A stretch of DNA of 22,675 nt from a virus. Made by a program: the position numbers and the translations under genes. The stretch is taken from positions 1 to 22,675 of IMG/VR virus record IMGVR_UViG_3300010354_000717. One strand, 5' to 3'. Numbering within the stretch: position 1 is the stretch's first letter; each line of letters starts with the position of its first letter. This document shows positions 1,684 through 14,244 of the stretch, one piece after another. The notes under the pieces were generated by a model. The model saw nothing but the letters and a program-made list of their open reading frames with translations. It was not told the DNA's origin and did no database searches.

Positions 1684-1692
1684 ATGTGCGCT

Positions 1693-1700
1693 TATAAATA
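1693..1700 (+). promoter_or_regulatory. T4-type late promoter -10 (TATAAATA) for gp26/gp51
   Basis: This is a perfect match to the T4 late-promoter octamer TATAAATA, recognised by gp55-containing RNA polymerase. With the octamer at -13 to -6, transcription would begin near 1706 and give a leader of about 25 bases before the ATG at 1731. It lies within the predicted leader of the divergent minus-strand gene. Confidence 0.75.
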
Positions 1701-1713
1701 TTCATAGTTCAAT

Positions 1714-1721
1714 TATTTATG
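1714..1721 (-). promoter_or_regulatory. Late promoter -10 (CATAAATA) for the tape-measure-like gene
   Basis: Read on the minus strand this is CATAAATA, one base from the T4 late consensus. The predicted start point is near 1708, giving a leader of about 25 bases before the ATG at 1683. The octamer lies inside the predicted leader of the plus-strand gp26 transcript. Confidence 0.6.
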
Positions 1722-1730
1722 GGGATCAAA

Positions 1731-2600
1731 ATGCAGCATTTTCCACAGCAACAACCGGCTAACGCCAATCCATTGGCCAAAATGTTTAGACAGCCAGCTA
1801 TCTATATACCACTGCCCAGCGGCGGTGCATATTGGCCACAAGGGGCCTTACAACTGCCTGAAACCGGCGAAATTCCAGTGTTTCCTATGACCAGTAGAGA
1901 TGAAATACTGCTACGTACACCTGATGCCATGATCAACGGGCAGGGCATGGTTGATGTGATGCAGAGTTGCTGTCCTAATATCAAAAATGCCTGGCAGATG
2001 CCGGCCACTGATGTGGACACTGTGCTGATTGCCATACGCATTGCCAGTTACGGTCATAACATGGATTTTGAAAGCAAGTGTCCGCACTGCGAAGAAACCC
2101 ATACCTATTCCATGGATCTACGCAGCATGCTGGAAAAGGTCAGCGCACCAGACTTTGAACAAGTACAAAACATTGAACGCTTGATTATCAAGTTTAGACC
2201 ACAGGCCTATTTTGGAGTTAACAAAAACAGCAAGATCAGTTTTGAAATTGCCAAACTAGGACAGGCCATTGAAAATCTAGAGGACGACGAAGCAAGAACA
2301 CAGGAAGCAGTTTCGCAGATGAATCGTTTGGTTGATCTTAATCTGGAAGTGCTGACAGAAGCCACAGACTACATAGCTCTTGAAGAAGATCCTGACATGA
2401 AGGTATTTGACAAGAATTACATAATTGAATTCTACAAAAATGTAGACAGCAAGACCATTACCAAGATTCAAGAAGCCTACGGAGAAATAGCAGCCAAAGG
2501 TGCTGTGCCACCACAAGAAACAGTGTGTGCTGGCTGTAACGAGCCCTTGATCATTTCCGTCACGTTTGACTACGCAAATTTTTTCGCTCCCGGCTCTTGA
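1731..2600 (+). CDS. 26: Baseplate hub protein, gp26-like (T4_baseplate family)
   Basis: This 289-residue protein resembles the gp26-like baseplate proteins of marine T4-type phages, which act in building the central hub. The N-terminal third carries a Pro/Gly-rich stretch (about 24-40) and a conserved-looking segment around ILLRTPDAMING. There are two CxxC pairs, CPHC at 117-120 and CAGC at 266-269, suggesting one structural zinc site closing the C-terminal half. T4 gp26 itself is smaller (208 residues). An upstream in-frame ATG at 1719 exists, but I prefer 1731 because GGGGA at 1721-1725 gives a six-base Shine-Dalgarno spacing to it. The late promoter is at 1693. The stop codon overlaps the next gene's TTG start. 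Family call is from recognised sequence pattern; the zinc site is inferred from the cysteines. Confidence 0.8.
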   Translation: MQHFPQQQPANANPLAKMFRQPAIYIPLPSGGAYWPQGALQLPETGEIPVFPMTSRDEILLRTPDAMINGQGMVDVMQSCCPNIKNAWQMPATDVDTVLIAIRIASYGHNMDFESKCPHCEETHTYSMDLRSMLEKVSAPDFEQVQNIERLIIKFRPQAYFGVNKNSKISFEIAKLGQAIENLEDDEARTQEAVSQMNRLVDLNLEVLTEATDYIALEEDPDMKVFDKNYIIEFYKNVDSKTITKIQEAYGEIAAKGAVPPQETVCAGCNEPLIISVTFDYANFFAPGS

Positions 2601-3290: not shown

Positions 3291-3731
3291 CTAACTACTT
3301 AATTTGCCTTTGATGTGAGAGCCATGGACGCGGACCTGAATGTGACCATTGTAATAGTCCGCTGATTCTAATACTTTGCGTGTGAATTGTTCTCGTGCCT
3401 CAATGTAACTACATTCTGCCTTGGAATAACAATAATAAAGGATCTCTCTGCTAAAGTTGTCTTGCCCTAGAGCTGCAACATCTTGATTCAGTTGATCATT
3501 GGAGCCATAATATGTTTGCCAGTCGCTGTCAATTTTGTTGCGTATTTTCTTGCGTTTTTTGATTCCGTTTTTCAGTTTAACAGTACGATAGGTTGTTCGT
3601 GCAAACTTTGCTAGTTTTTTGCCAATGTATTTTTTGCCAGAGAGTAGATTGGTAATTTCATAGACGAACCCTACACAGTCTTCTGGTAAGGTTTCCACAA
3701 TGTTGCCTTGGTGTGTCCATGTCATATGCAA
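3291..3731 (-). CDS. Free-standing GIY-YIG endonuclease, SegE-like
   Basis: This 146-residue protein has the GIY-YIG nuclease layout: GFVYEI (21-26, a divergent GIY), KYIG (34-37), then a basic stretch, DWQTYYGSN (70-78), NFSREIL (92-98) and the acidic YIEAREQ (109-115), whose glutamate (E111 or E114) would be the metal-binding catalytic residue. T4 carries several such free-standing genes (segA-segE), which cut DNA and promote their own spread. It lies downstream of gp46 across a 37-base gap, next to the structured spacer. The TTG start at 3731 sits nine bases after AGGAGA (3741-3746); an in-frame ATG follows at 3725. An out-of-frame ATG at 3735 is even closer to that Shine-Dalgarno sequence and opens only a short frame. 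A strand-specific nicking or repair role is also possible. Confidence 0.75.
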   Translation of the reverse strand: MHMTWTHQGNIVETLPEDCVGFVYEITNLLSGKKYIGKKLAKFARTTYRTVKLKNGIKKRKKIRNKIDSDWQTYYGSNDQLNQDVAALGQDNFSREILYYCYSKAECSYIEAREQFTRKVLESADYYNGHIQVRVHGSHIKGKLSS

Positions 3732-6603: not shown

Positions 6604-7488
6604 TCATTCCTCATAGCTTGTACTACCACCTGCTCCCCAACTGCTGTTTTGATTCTGGCGAGTGTAACTGGGATTGAGATTGTTCATTTCAAGAATATCG
6701 TCTCGTAGATTCTGGTTGCGCTTTTCAATGTTAAGCACTCGAGTAAAGGAATTAGTGATAGCAGCAGTATAATAAGCAAAAGGATTTTGTGATTTGCTTT
6801 CATCAAATTGTAGTCCTATCTGTGACAGTTGTAGTAGAGCCTGGCTGCGCATTTCGTCGTTGTAGGTGTAACCACGCCAGTTTGAACGAGTGGCATAGCG
6901 TTCGCACAGCTTCATAAACATCAGGGCCAGCTTTTTGGTCATGGTTCCGTGATCTTTGCTGAATTTGCCAGTTTCTAAATCACCTTGCCAGTGACTCATG
7001 CCTACCACATGATATTCATCATTCTCGTTGATTTTCCAGTGTTGAAACGGAGGAAAATTTACCTTTACATATTTTGTAGGCAATTTTAGCAGTTCTTCAA
7101 CACCAGCATCGTATTCTGTTTCCACAGCAGTGTCCTCTTCTTCTAACAACTGCTTTTTGCTCTTGCTTTCGTCTACAGGCACATGACTCCAGGTCATGAC
7201 TCTAAATATCACGTCTGTTTCTGGAATTTTAGTGTGCTTGATTTCAAACTCTTCTAATTTACGTTTGGTGCCATCTGCCGTGGCAGCTTCGTGCGCCAGT
7301 TTGGCCAATCGCTCTGCACGATTTTTACGTCCTTGCAAAACATCTTTTTTTGCTATGGTTCCCTTGTTGTTCAATGACACTATGATATCATAGTCTGCAT
7401 TTTCAGGTACAGCATACCAGCAGTAGGTGTTTTTGCTTTTGTGTATCTCCTTTAGTATGTCTTTGTTGTTGAGGTAATTGTGCTTCAT
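6604..7488 (-). CDS. 55: Late-transcription sigma factor, gp55-like, with large insertion
   Basis: gp55 is the small sigma-family factor that lets host RNA polymerase recognise TATAAATA late promoters. The N-terminus (HNYLNNKDIL, 3-12) matches T4 gp55's YNYVNNKELL. Residues 181-263 match its sigma core, including RSNWRGYTYNDEMRSQA, FDESKSQNPFAYY and IEKRNQNLRDDIL, the polymerase- and -10-binding part. Between them lie about 160 residues absent from T4 gp55, including VNFPPFQHW (143-151). The protein is therefore 294 residues against 185. The C-terminus ends in a Gly/Ser/Asn-rich tail without the hydrophobic-acidic clamp-binding motif of T4 gp55. It is first in the 55-47-46 cluster, as in T4. 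AAGGA (7499-7503) lies ten bases before the ATG. Sure of the family, less of how the extra region works. Confidence 0.85.
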   Translation of the reverse strand: MKHNYLNNKDILKEIHKSKNTYCWYAVPENADYDIIVSLNNKGTIAKKDVLQGRKNRAERLAKLAHEAATADGTKRKLEEFEIKHTKIPETDVIFRVMTWSHVPVDESKSKKQLLEEEDTAVETEYDAGVEELLKLPTKYVKVNFPPFQHWKINENDEYHVVGMSHWQGDLETGKFSKDHGTMTKKLALMFMKLCERYATRSNWRGYTYNDEMRSQALLQLSQIGLQFDESKSQNPFAYYTAAITNSFTRVLNIEKRNQNLRDDILEMNNLNPSYTRQNQNSSWGAGGSTSYEE

Positions 7489-7528
7489 GGGTTAGTGTTC
7501 CTTTATAAAACTACCACTTATTTTAACG

Positions 7529-7536
7529 AATAAATA
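7529..7536 (+). promoter_or_regulatory. Late promoter -10 (AATAAATA) for the gp48 baseplate operon
   Basis: AATAAATA differs from the T4 late octamer by one base. The predicted start point near 7542 gives a 23-base leader holding the ribosome site GAGAGGA (7549-7555), nine bases before the gp48 ATG. It heads the run gp48, gp53, hub-like protein, gp5 and lysozyme-like protein, in which no other octamer is seen between genes. Confidence 0.7.
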
Positions 7537-7564
7537 ATAAAAAAGCAAGAGAGGACTAGTACTT

Positions 7565-8851: not shown

Positions 8852-11551
8852 ATGGCAGAAACAGCTCTTGTAGGGATCCAAGCCCAAGGCAGTTACCAAG
8901 AACAACCTTTAGACGCCAATCAAGCACAGCGATTACAACAGAATCGAACAAATGCTTTACAAGAAGCAGACACTGACCCAGGCGACGGATTTGGAGCCAC
9001 TAGAAAACCTTCTTTTTCCACCGCAGTATCAGATGCGCAAGCAGCCAGTAGAACCGACAGCAGAAATTTCACCGGTCCAGACACACAGAATAAAAAGAAA
9101 TTAGAAGTAGGTACAGATCAGACTCCGGTACCCACAGTGGGGAAAAATCCCTTGCATGATTATGCTTCGCATACCTATAGCATAAGTTTACACATGTTGA
9201 GCAAGGCAGATTTCAATCAAATGGGAGCTGACCCAGACAGCAACTGGGTACCAAGCAAAACCATCATTGGTGGCGCAGGCAAATGGGGAGTTGAAGGATT
9301 TACAAGAGACCAGAACTTTCTAGATGATTTTTATTTTGATAATCTTAAGGTCACAACAATCATAGGCAGCACTGCGGGCAATCAAGGCACTAATTCAGTC
9401 GAGCTAGGCTTTACTGTGATTGAGCCCTATGGTGTGACCTTGATTGATCGATTGATTGATGCCTGTCTTGATCCAGCAGTGGATGGCAAAAACTATATTG
9501 AAATACCTTATTTGATTCAAATTGATTTTTATGGATTTGATGACGAAGGCATTTCTAAACCTCTAACCAAGCAAAGAAAATTCATTCCAATTAATATCTT
9601 AAGTATGAATATCAAAGCAGGCATCAAAGGTGCTGAATATCAAATGAGTGCAGTGCCATATGCACATTCTGGATTCCAAGAATCAATTGCTGCTACGCCA
9701 GCCAACTTTGAAGTCATTGCCAGTACCTTGCAAGAATATTTTGCTGACGTCAGTGATGCCAATGATTTAAAACTGGCTGAAAAGTTCAATCAAAGAGCAG
9801 AAGCAGAAAAAGCAGCAGCAGCCAAAGAAGAAAAAACATCACCAGCTGCTCAATCAAATGCAAGAAAAACCACCAAGTCTGAAAGCAGTGCCAGCGGAAC
9901 TGACGATAGTGATCCAAGTTACACAGTAAAAAGTTATGTTAGTGCCTATAATGCATGGGGCAAAGCGGCTGTGGCAAACAAGAATGCTACAGATTACAAC
10001 AGTATTAAAGTGGTGTTTGATGACAAAATTCTAAAAGCGGCCAATGGCAATGGTGGCAAGATTGTGAATGCGCAGGCACAACCCGCCAGTCAGGTGCCAA
10101 CTGTGAATCCAAAAAGAAACAAACAAGCATCTCAGTCGGTTAGAAGCAACTATGGCAAACCTGATGCTAGACCTAATTTTAATCAAAGCAAGTTCACAAT
10201 CAACGGGCAAACCAGTGTGATTTCAGTGATCAACAATATCATGTTGAGCAGTGAATACATCAGATCGCAGGTGATTGATCCTACCAAGGATGCAGCACAA
10301 AATTCAGCAGACAAAAAGGCGCCAGTGAACTGGTGGAAAGTGATTCCAGAAGTGAAATTGCGTTCCTATTGTCCGCGAAACAGCAAGTGGTATCTAGATG
10401 TCACTTATTATGTAAAATCTTACACTGTTTATAATAGAACACATCCTAATGCACCCAAGGACATGCCCAAAGGTTGGCACAGAGAGTACAACTATATCTA
10501 CACAGGACAAAACAATGACATCATTGATTTCAGCATTGAATTTGACACTGCTTTTTATACTGCTGTGACCATTGATAGAAATCGTGTGGCATCCACACTG
10601 GTACAGGCCAGTCCTGATCTTGAAGACACCAGATATCTGGCACAAAAAGATGAGACACCAGCAGACACTGCTAAAAGAAAAGCTCTAAGCGGTGGAATTC
10701 AACCCACTACCATAGTGCCAGTTGCAGATAATGTGAGTTCAGCTTCGCAGGCCAGCAACAGACAAAACAGTGTGAGCATGGCCACAGCTTCACTGGATGA
10801 GCATGTGAGCAGCGGGCAGTCAGCTGACCAACTGAACATACGACTTAAAATTATTGGAGATCCACAGTTTATCAAACAGGATGAAATATATTATTCTCCT
10901 TCAGCACGTAGGTACAACGAAGAAGCAGCAGCCGCAAATAACTATGTAACAGATCCTAGTAGCAGTATAGCCATGGACAACGGCGAAGTACATGTGAAAC
11001 TGAGTTGGAAAACGCCAGTGGACATTGATGAGGAAACTGGTGCACTGCGTATAAATGGCAATTACTTTCAATCTGCCTTTAGCGGAATATTTCAGGTGCT
11101 CACTGTGGAAAGCACGTTTGCACAAGGAAAATTTGAACAGACCTTGGACTGCATAAGATTACCAGATCAGCCCACAGATGCGCCTGGTGAAGCCAATCAA
11201 ACCAATGACATAAGAAAAGACAATTTACCAAAAGCCAAAAAAGATGGCGAAGGCATTGGTTATCAGAAACAAGACAGTGCATCAGTAGAAGCACTAAAAA
11301 CCAGTACGCTAACTGCTCTGCTGGAAAACAAATCAACCAACAAGGTACCAAACACAGCAGGCAGCACAGATGATACTTATTTTAGATCTGGCGGCAGTCT
11401 AGGTGGATATGCACAATCAAATGTAGACACCTCACCAGAGCAGGATCAAACCGGCTACGGCGAAGAATATCAAAGCAGTCAGGCACGAGCATTATCCAAT
11501 ATCAACAGAACAGCACCAACAGAAACAGCCAACGAATTTTTTGGTATTTAA
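8852..11551 (+). CDS. Large baseplate hub-like structural protein (gp27 position)
   Basis: This 899-residue protein sits between gp53 and gp5. Ordered blocks alternate with disordered linkers: disorder at 1-100; a globular block at about 105-300 with VELGFTVIEPYGVTLIDRL and IPYLIQIDFYGFDDEG; an Ala/Lys/Glu/Ser-rich linker at about 310-350; a block at about 440-590 with YYVKSYTVYNRTHP and a YIYTGQNNDIIDFSIEFD strand; a block at about 660-770 ending GKFEQTLDCIRLP; and a disordered tail rich in Gln, Ser and Asn. The short-loop FxQxLxxxR ending is common in gp27/VgrG-type hub proteins. I infer that it forms the trimeric hub ring carrying gp5, replacing T4 gp27 (391 residues). AGGA at 8841-8844 serves as ribosome site. 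It is certainly a virion protein by context; the hub role is inference. Confidence 0.6.
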   Translation: MAETALVGIQAQGSYQEQPLDANQAQRLQQNRTNALQEADTDPGDGFGATRKPSFSTAVSDAQAASRTDSRNFTGPDTQNKKKLEVGTDQTPVPTVGKNPLHDYASHTYSISLHMLSKADFNQMGADPDSNWVPSKTIIGGAGKWGVEGFTRDQNFLDDFYFDNLKVTTIIGSTAGNQGTNSVELGFTVIEPYGVTLIDRLIDACLDPAVDGKNYIEIPYLIQIDFYGFDDEGISKPLTKQRKFIPINILSMNIKAGIKGAEYQMSAVPYAHSGFQESIAATPANFEVIASTLQEYFADVSDANDLKLAEKFNQRAEAEKAAAAKEEKTSPAAQSNARKTTKSESSASGTDDSDPSYTVKSYVSAYNAWGKAAVANKNATDYNSIKVVFDDKILKAANGNGGKIVNAQAQPASQVPTVNPKRNKQASQSVRSNYGKPDARPNFNQSKFTINGQTSVISVINNIMLSSEYIRSQVIDPTKDAAQNSADKKAPVNWWKVIPEVKLRSYCPRNSKWYLDVTYYVKSYTVYNRTHPNAPKDMPKGWHREYNYIYTGQNNDIIDFSIEFDTAFYTAVTIDRNRVASTLVQASPDLEDTRYLAQKDETPADTAKRKALSGGIQPTTIVPVADNVSSASQASNRQNSVSMATASLDEHVSSGQSADQLNIRLKIIGDPQFIKQDEIYYSPSARRYNEEAAAANNYVTDPSSSIAMDNGEVHVKLSWKTPVDIDEETGALRINGNYFQSAFSGIFQVLTVESTFAQGKFEQTLDCIRLPDQPTDAPGEANQTNDIRKDNLPKAKKDGEGIGYQKQDSASVEALKTSTLTALLENKSTNKVPNTAGSTDDTYFRSGGSLGGYAQSNVDTSPEQDQTGYGEEYQSSQARALSNINRTAPTETANEFFGI

Positions 11552-13033: not shown

Positions 13034-13813
13034 ATGGCAGAAGTGAGCGCATTATCAGCCACAGTGATTATTAAAACCGAAGATGAATGCATACCTAATA
13101 ACGTGGTTAGAGATGCAGCAGGAAATCCTATCCGACTGGCCAATGGATCATTTTTGACTTCAGGTGAAGAAAAACTAGATTCTGGTCCTCAAACAGCCAA
13201 GAATCAAACTTTACCTTTGAATTTTCAAGTGCAAAAAAGTGTGCTTGTAAATTTATCTACACCCGAGCCGCCAGGAGGCATAGGACGTCTTACTAGACTA
13301 CATGTGAAAGCTGTGATGATCATGATAGCGAGAGCAGCCAGCGGAAATCTATACAATCTAATTACACCATCAGATTTCGTAGGCAAATATCAATTGTCAG
13401 CTATAACCTTGAGTGAACTAGGATATATAAAACCAGAGTATGTGGTCACATACGGATTGTCAACTGTAAAACGTAGAGAAGCCTGGACAGGAAAAGACAG
13501 AATAAACAGTTTAGAAACATGGTTTCTCAGTCCTGGAGTACAGGAAGCAGCAATGTTCAACTTCTTGGAAAAAAATTACATCAGCATGCAAAACAACGGT
13601 GCTATCAAAGACGAAGACAATCTGTGTACGATTGCAGGTATGTTGTGTGTTGCACATATCTTAGGACCCGACAGTGGCACTGAACTGGCGCCAGGAGCCA
13701 AACGTTGGCGCACCACCGGAGGCGGAAAGGATGTCAACGGTAACTATGCTTCAACCTATTTTTTACTTGGCAGATATGCCATTGATGTGCTTGCAGCACC
13801 TAGAACACAATAA
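13034..13813 (+). CDS. Lysozyme/transglycosylase-like baseplate protein with altered active site
   Basis: This 259-residue protein has an N-terminal beta-rich or disordered part (1-85) and a helical domain (about 88-255) resembling phage and bacterial lysozyme-like proteins: IARAASGNLYNLITPSDFVGKYQ (98-120), LGYIKP (129-134), WTGKDRINS (151-159), FLSPGVQEAAM (164-174), and a closing GRYAIDVL. Members I know have glutamate in the ESG turn; here the place is Ala102 (GCC at 13337-13339), so hydrolysis of peptidoglycan is uncertain. It follows gp5 by one base, with the best ribosome site of the window (GGAGG at 13024-13028, five bases before ATG 13034). An upstream in-frame start at 12962 lies inside gp5 and is unlikely. 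I infer that it supplies, or once supplied, the cell-wall function held in T4 gp5. Confidence 0.6.
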   Translation: MAEVSALSATVIIKTEDECIPNNVVRDAAGNPIRLANGSFLTSGEEKLDSGPQTAKNQTLPLNFQVQKSVLVNLSTPEPPGGIGRLTRLHVKAVMIMIARAASGNLYNLITPSDFVGKYQLSAITLSELGYIKPEYVVTYGLSTVKRREAWTGKDRINSLETWFLSPGVQEAAMFNFLEKNYISMQNNGAIKDEDNLCTIAGMLCVAHILGPDSGTELAPGAKRWRTTGGGKDVNGNYASTYFLLGRYAIDVLAAPRTQ

Positions 13814-13816
13814 ATA
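13809..13816 (+). promoter_or_regulatory. Late promoter -10 (AATAAATA) across the upstream stop codon
   Basis: The octamer AATAAATA contains the TAA stop of the lysozyme-like gene (13811-13813). With T4 spacing, the start point would be base 13822, the A of the gp25 ATG. The motif is as good a match as the others, but its closeness to the start codon is exceptional. Confidence 0.55.
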
Positions 13817-13821
13817 CTCTT

Positions 13822-14217
13822 ATGGCACTCTACAACGGATTTAGCACTTACAACAGATACAAAAAGTACAAAGTCACAGATTTTGAACTGGTAAAACAGG
13901 ATCTGTTTAATCATTTTAACATTCGCAAGGGCGAAAAACTCATGAACCCTGAATTTGGTACCATTATCTGGGGCATGCTGTTTGAACCTTTCACTGATGA
14001 TGTACGCAAGGCAATCACAGACGATGTAAAACGCATTGTGACCTATGATCCAAGAATAGCTGTGGACAGTATTCAAATTGACGAGTATCAACAGGGCATA
14101 CAGATACTGATCACAGTTACCTATCTTGTGGAAAACTATACCAGCACCATACTCTTCAACTTTGATCGTGACAGTCGTACACTGAGCACTGGTACCTACG
14201 GTAACGACGCCATTTAA
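13822..14217 (+). CDS. 25: Baseplate wedge subunit gp25
   Basis: gp25 is a small wedge protein related to type VI secretion TssE that links the wedge to the first sheath ring. At 131 residues it equals T4 gp25 (132) in length. Family features seen are IRKGEKLMNPEFGT (34-47), matching T4's TRKGSRPFDPEFG, MLFEPFTDD, ITDDVKRIVTYDPRI (66-80), matching T4's YEPRI, and a final beta-strand pair. No Shine-Dalgarno sequence lies in the eight bases between genes; only the late-promoter octamer and ACTCTT are there. It is thus translated either by coupling from the upstream gene or from a leaderless late transcript. Confidence 0.9.
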   Translation: MALYNGFSTYNRYKKYKVTDFELVKQDLFNHFNIRKGEKLMNPEFGTIIWGMLFEPFTDDVRKAITDDVKRIVTYDPRIAVDSIQIDEYQQGIQILITVTYLVENYTSTILFNFDRDSRTLSTGTYGNDAI

Positions 14218-14236: not shown

Positions 14237-14244
14237 AATAAATA
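14237..14244 (+). promoter_or_regulatory. Late promoter -10 (AATAAATA) for gp6
   Basis: AATAAATA lies in the 46-base gap between gp25 and gp6. The predicted start near 14250 leaves a 14-base leader to the ATG at 14264, without an evident Shine-Dalgarno sequence. Confidence 0.65.

Follow-up and report, generated by a model that had tools for sequence, protein, structure and literature searches.

How can a gap of 47 bp serve two diverging late genes, and does the placement of their promoters tie the expression of one gene to that of the other? The question is raised by a 22,675-base IMG/VR virus record of a T4-like giant phage (the window, i.e. the whole stretch of DNA analysed) with T4-type genes: gp26-, gp46/47-, gp55-, gp53- and gp25-like. 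Its divergent structural gene (start 1683, minus strand) and gp26 (start 1731, plus strand) are separated by a gap that contains two late-promoter octamers. The initial annotation read them as interlocked divergent late promoters, and both octamers are indeed found at 1693–1700 (+) and 1714–1721 (−). All features discussed are collected in Table 1.

Table 1 Coordinates of the features in the window and of the crossed octamers in T4.
Feature	Position	Strand	Remark
Late-promoter octamer TATAAATA	1693–1700	+	Serves gp26-like gene; crossed position kept in 49/52 distinct gaps
Late-promoter octamer CATAAATA	1714–1721	−	Serves tape-measure-like gene; adjoins gp26 Shine-Dalgarno
Predicted gp26 mRNA 5' leader	1706–1730	+	Start 1706 from the −13/−6 rule
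Predicted tape-measure-like mRNA 5' leader	1684–1708	−	Start 1708 from the −13/−6 rule
Shine-Dalgarno-like GGGGA	1721–1725	+	5 nt upstream of ATG 1731
gp26-like baseplate hub gene	1731–2600	+	PF12322 1.3e-16; phrog_150 3.6e-21
Virion structural, tape-measure-like gene	1–1683	−	Extends beyond window; profile homology to structural protein beside portal gene in RaK2, CBB and others
gp55-type late sigma factor	6604–7488	−	phrog_12791 9.5e-76; phrog_234 3e-23
Lone late octamer, divergent gap gp55 / 7565 gene	7529–7536	+	No minus octamer there
Late octamer upstream of gp25	13809–13816	+	13 nt upstream of ATG 13822; predicted leaderless
Late octamer upstream of ATG 14264	14237–14244	+	27 nt upstream; gene gp6-like by position
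T4 gene 4/53 crossed octamers	77338–77384		Gap 47 bp; box-to-start distances 36/34
T4 inh/segE crossed octamers	112008–112056		Gap 49 bp

In T4, the late octamer occupies positions −13 to −6 relative to the transcript start (excerpted text of PMC1524935). This rule predicts +1 at 1706 on the plus strand and at 1708 on the minus strand, the values proposed initially. The gp26 frame is open from ATG 1719, yet the Shine-Dalgarno GGGGA suits ATG 1731, so that both octamer-to-start distances amount to 38 nt and both leaders to about 25 nt. The genes diverge and the promoters face each other, an order that we call crossed (plus octamer left of minus octamer): the octamers are 13 bp apart, the predicted 5' ends share 3 nt (1706–1708) and the starts cross by 2 bp. 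The coordinates bear out that each octamer lies in the other transcript's predicted leader. Read from left to right, the gap would consist of ATG, leader, plus octamer, 13 bp, minus octamer, Shine-Dalgarno and ATG, each −10 box doubling as leader sequence of the opposite gene. With initiation presumably at 1706 and 1708, two polymerases would be unable to occupy both promoters simultaneously; judged by geometry, this part of the initial annotation, exclusion at any instant, probably holds.

The arrangement is widely kept. We searched 61 viral loci with a gp26 relative, plus 15 cultured-phage records fetched of the 63 that matched. A homologous divergent gap was present in 71 loci (the window, 58 environmental loci and 12 cultured jumbo phages), corresponding to 52 distinct gaps; eight gaps were set by hand (L009, L016, L017, L031, L049, L067, L068, L072). 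Dropped before this count were three loci whose sequence lacks the gap (L007, L060, L061), Atu_ph07 (L064; different neighbour, one octamer), Vibrio 2.275 (L074; co-directional neighbour, one octamer) and LR756511 (L075; without annotated neighbour, and with no octamer in 150 bases). The crossed order is found in 49 of the 52 distinct gaps. With exact 6-mer cores the count is 48, against a mean of 0.99 and a maximum of 5 in shuffled gaps, which rules out a chance origin of the pair; in the forty-ninth, L051, the plus core differs at a single base. Alignment of the octamer pair across relatives, a check set beforehand, thus came out in favour of its preservation, and apart from the mismatch in L051 no relative among the 52 distinct gaps lacks one octamer while keeping the gene pair.

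The 49 crossed gaps are 47–80 bp long, with an octamer span of 25–42 bp. Despite gap growth, the minus octamer stays 9–22 bp from the gp26 start (mean 11.7, sd 2.2). The distance from the minus box to its own gene start tracks gap length (rho 0.97), and the length changes sit in the minus leader; in effect, the pair shifts rather as a single unit would. The minus octamers are the more canonical: 47 of 49 have NATAAATA, and ATAAATA is present in 30 of 49 plus boxes. The helical phase of the octamer span is non-uniform (R 0.45, n = 49).

The left-hand gene was initially called tape-measure-like. Here we built a homology profile from 37 such proteins, the window's own included and entered twice, and ran it on the called ORFs of RaK2, CBB, PBECO4, T4, G001 and G004, together with 11 distinct cultured neighbours. 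It matched positional homologues only, among them 9 of the 11 cultured neighbours (E from 1e-18 to 5e-8), with no match for the PA5oct and SCTP-2 neighbours. In cultured records the gene adjoins an annotated portal gene. The label is plausible but not established: Pfam and PHROGs give no family match for the window protein, and its positional counterpart in cultured jumbo phages carries the annotation virion structural protein. The name gp51 given to 2597–2815 finds no support in Pfam or PHROGs. A terminator-like hairpin at 1638–1657, on the minus strand within the beginning of the tape-like gene, is probably due to chance.

Are both octamers promoters? The word ATAAATA occurs 5 times in the window, compared with 3.8 ± 2.1 expected; this count is by itself ordinary, and significance therefore rests on the position of the octamers, not on their number. 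Both focal sites carry an octamer close to TATAAATA, and their distances of 38 and 38 nt to the gene starts compare with co-directional late-gene medians of 29–43 in six genomes (G001 29, G004 29.5, T4 34, RaK2 41.5, CBB and PBECO4 43). The focal distances thus resemble those of ordinary late genes, although the window's 38 exceeds the G001 median. The same genome encodes a gp55-like sigma factor (6604–7488, phrog_12791). Finally, a scan of the window found no sigma-70 type −35/−10 pair in 1600–1850, the region of the focal gap.

Antisense boxes are scarce where genes are co-directional. TATTTA was found in the leader of 0 of 54 co-directional TAAATA sites in the relatives' loci, a count that excludes the focal gap (before exclusion, 6 of 60 sites had an antisense box), and at 4 of 135 co-directional ATAAATA sites an antisense box was present (six genomes). 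Gene starts for the co-directional sites, for the listing of divergent gaps and for the box-to-start distance classes came from a simple home-made caller. The antisense box is thus a feature of divergence, not of leaders in general; together with the conserved crossed order, this makes it very probable that the octamers are two genuine late promoters.

These counts also weigh on the idea that only one octamer is a promoter, with the TATTTAT upstream of the gp26 Shine-Dalgarno acting in translation as an AU-rich element. Its near-fixed distance to the Shine-Dalgarno that it adjoins would agree with such a role, but the scarcity of antisense boxes in co-directional late leaders, the retention of NATAAATA on the minus strand in 47 of 49 gaps and the symmetry of the layout leave it a distinctly unlikely explanation. 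We give still less credence to a single dyad, acting as operator of a dimeric protein or as RNA hairpin. Any two facing octamers make an inverted repeat, read-through plus-strand RNA could fold at −7.4 kcal/mol, and the helical phase preference (R 0.45) also counts in its favour. However, the span ranges over 25–42 bp where an operator would have fixed half-site spacing, only one arm is present in each predicted mRNA, and the fold is ordinary: z is −1.36 (+) and 0.50 (−), with 21 and 130 of 200 shuffles folding as well.

What, then, produces the crossed order of the two promoters? Three distinct gaps are uncrossed, those of Phosso (93 bp), PBECO4 (130 bp) and SCTP-2 (154 bp), with box-to-start distances of 31–56; all three are longer than any crossed gap. 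PBECO4 retains both homologous genes and both octamers around its 130-bp gap, which shows that crossing is dispensable. The gp26 tree pairs it with RaK2 as sister (100/99 support) within a clade of crossed phages, which places a loss of crossing on its lineage. Since the span equals the sum of the plus and minus box-to-start distances minus the gap, crossing amounts to a gap below the sum of those two distances.

Crossed octamers also occur at other gene pairs. Like the focal gap, T4 4/53 and inh/segE have divergent genes, short gaps (47 and 49 bp) and the plus octamer left of the minus one; unlike it, 4/53 is an unrelated gene pair, whose predicted starts do not overlap. We surveyed the gp53 gap in 7 records, fetched of 30 listed (1,433 in all). 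It is crossed in 5 of these 7 other phages, namely JS98, CHI14, AB-Navy, RB49 and Roth79; Aeromonas phage 25 has a different neighbour and an uncrossed gap of 74, and PMBT1 keeps the pair with the minus core missing. A second, non-homologous crossed pair lies in the gap that separates a small gene from a structural one, just upstream of gp61/gp41, in RaK2 (L115), CBB (L116), PBECO4 (L117) and XaC1 (L118). In Munch and BF, pattern matches at a similar distance from gp26 suggest a candidate second crossed pair as well. Genome-wide, there is no enrichment of crossed pairs over 12 contigs: 24 pairs were crossed and 27 had the control orientation, and the focal locus accounts for 12 of the 24 crossed ones. 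Among 12 cultured records, the control orientation was commoner than the crossed one in 10. The RaK2 focal gap, near the end of a sequence piece, is missing from the separate listing of divergent gaps.

In the open-licence literature we recognised no description of crossed late promoters in T4-like phages, and the known systems resemble the focal gap in part. Overlapping late promoters of T4 genes 26 and 51 were reportedly the title subject of a 1989 article by Scarlato et al. in Virology. That locus likewise involves baseplate gene 26 and divergent late transcription, across a gap of 50 bp. Its octamers, however, overlap within the palindrome TATTTATAAATA and stand back to back; the focal ones are separate and crossed, without overlap of the 26/51 type. 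Beck and Warren are said to have set out a class of face-to-face divergent promoters in 1988. The focal pair has their crossed layout and overlapping 5' ends, but both its promoters are of the phage late type, without −35 elements. The bidirectional promoters of E. coli, as excerpted from Warman et al. 2026 (PMC12825309), similarly place two orientations on one short DNA stretch with steric exclusion. They are pseudo-symmetric, however, with diverging starts mostly 18 (also 10 and 23) bp apart; the focal gap has two separate boxes with crossing starts, and no pseudo-symmetric shared element.

We consider it likely that the gap is a compact, inherited bidirectional late control region that lets two late genes with leaders stand back to back, with exclusion probably a by-product. 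Where late genes with ordinary distances of about 25–55 nt diverge across a gap shorter than their sum, the crossed order would arise, and it would then be inherited. T4 4/53, crossed at a gap of 47 bp with distances of 36 and 34 close to those of ordinary late genes, supports such packing. Promoter exclusion would probably have a small effect and not be the reason for the layout. Some observations count against packing pure and simple: 19 distinct environmental gaps of 61–80 bp are still crossed, though two 29-nt distances would fit them uncrossed; the distance of the minus box to gp26 is held; and the helical phase is non-uniform. The crossing of long gaps, the minus distance that follows gap length and the helical phase could be explained by inheritance, and also by selection on the pair.

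The initial annotation proposed that the layout makes expression mutually exclusive per DNA molecule and could balance the amounts of the two products. If the crossing were selected because polymerase exclusion couples or balances the tape-measure-like gene and gp26, one would understand the deep conservation of the crossed order, the persistence of crossing in the 19 gaps long enough to uncross, and the joint shift of the two boxes. The two products belong to the tail, where few copies of each are required. Late promoters are activated by the clamp gp45 (PMC2988020, excerpt), and the excerpted E. coli work reports that strong activation of one side represses the other and that interference can reduce noise (PMC12825309). 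The same excerpt, though, describes basal activity as insufficient for the two sides to compete, strong activation of one of them being the exception. PBECO4, SCTP-2 and Phosso are uncrossed, PBECO4 with the gene pair and octamers intact, and the same layout recurs at unrelated pairs (4/53, inh/segE, the small and structural genes before gp61–gp41), each of which would need separate reasons. Mutually exclusive expression per DNA molecule and balancing are thus unsupported as proposed, and we regard selection for balancing as unlikely. Equally doubtful is its extension to the T4 superfamily, by which crossed late promoters would be a selected, recurrent see-saw module: strong clamp-activated initiation in one orientation would block the other on each replicating DNA molecule, tie the output of virion-gene pairs (tape-measure-like/gp26, 4/53, the structural gene before gp61) and lower noise.

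The window has further late octamers. The divergent gap 7489–7564, between gp55 and a structural gene, has a plus octamer only, which one would expect were gp55 not itself a late gene. The gene at ATG 14264 we take to be gp6-like from the T4 gene order. Next to gp46 lies a GIY-YIG SegE-like gene (3291–3731, PF19835), whose best PHROG is labelled NAD synthetase, by the look of it a mislabel.

In G001 and G004 (L079–L114), the distance from NATAAATA to the gene start falls into two classes, 12–16 nt (8 and 13 sites, respectively) and at least 24 nt. A Shine-Dalgarno is present at 0 of 8 (G001) and 1 of 13 (G004) sites of the short class, as opposed to 21 of 28 and 28 of 30 in the 24–45 nt class. 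The caller favours starts with a Shine-Dalgarno, so a preference for starts lacking one does not account for this contrast. With the octamer 13 nt from the start codon, transcription is predicted to begin at the A of ATG, by which short-class mRNAs would be leaderless; from sequence, late mRNAs of this class in the window's clade apparently are. Window gp25 (13809–13822) is an example. RaK2, CBB and T4 have no site in the 12–16 nt class; in PBECO4 a single site lies at 10 nt. At 10398–10426 of L112 (G004), two apparently leaderless genes diverge from uncrossed octamers in a 29-bp gap.

The crossed late-promoter pair is thus not a curiosity of one fragment: the layout persists at homologous genes in a range of jumbo phages, and it recurs at other pairs, including in T4. 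Crossed RaK2 and uncrossed PBECO4 form a clean comparative set for promoter interference under a clamp-activated polymerase.
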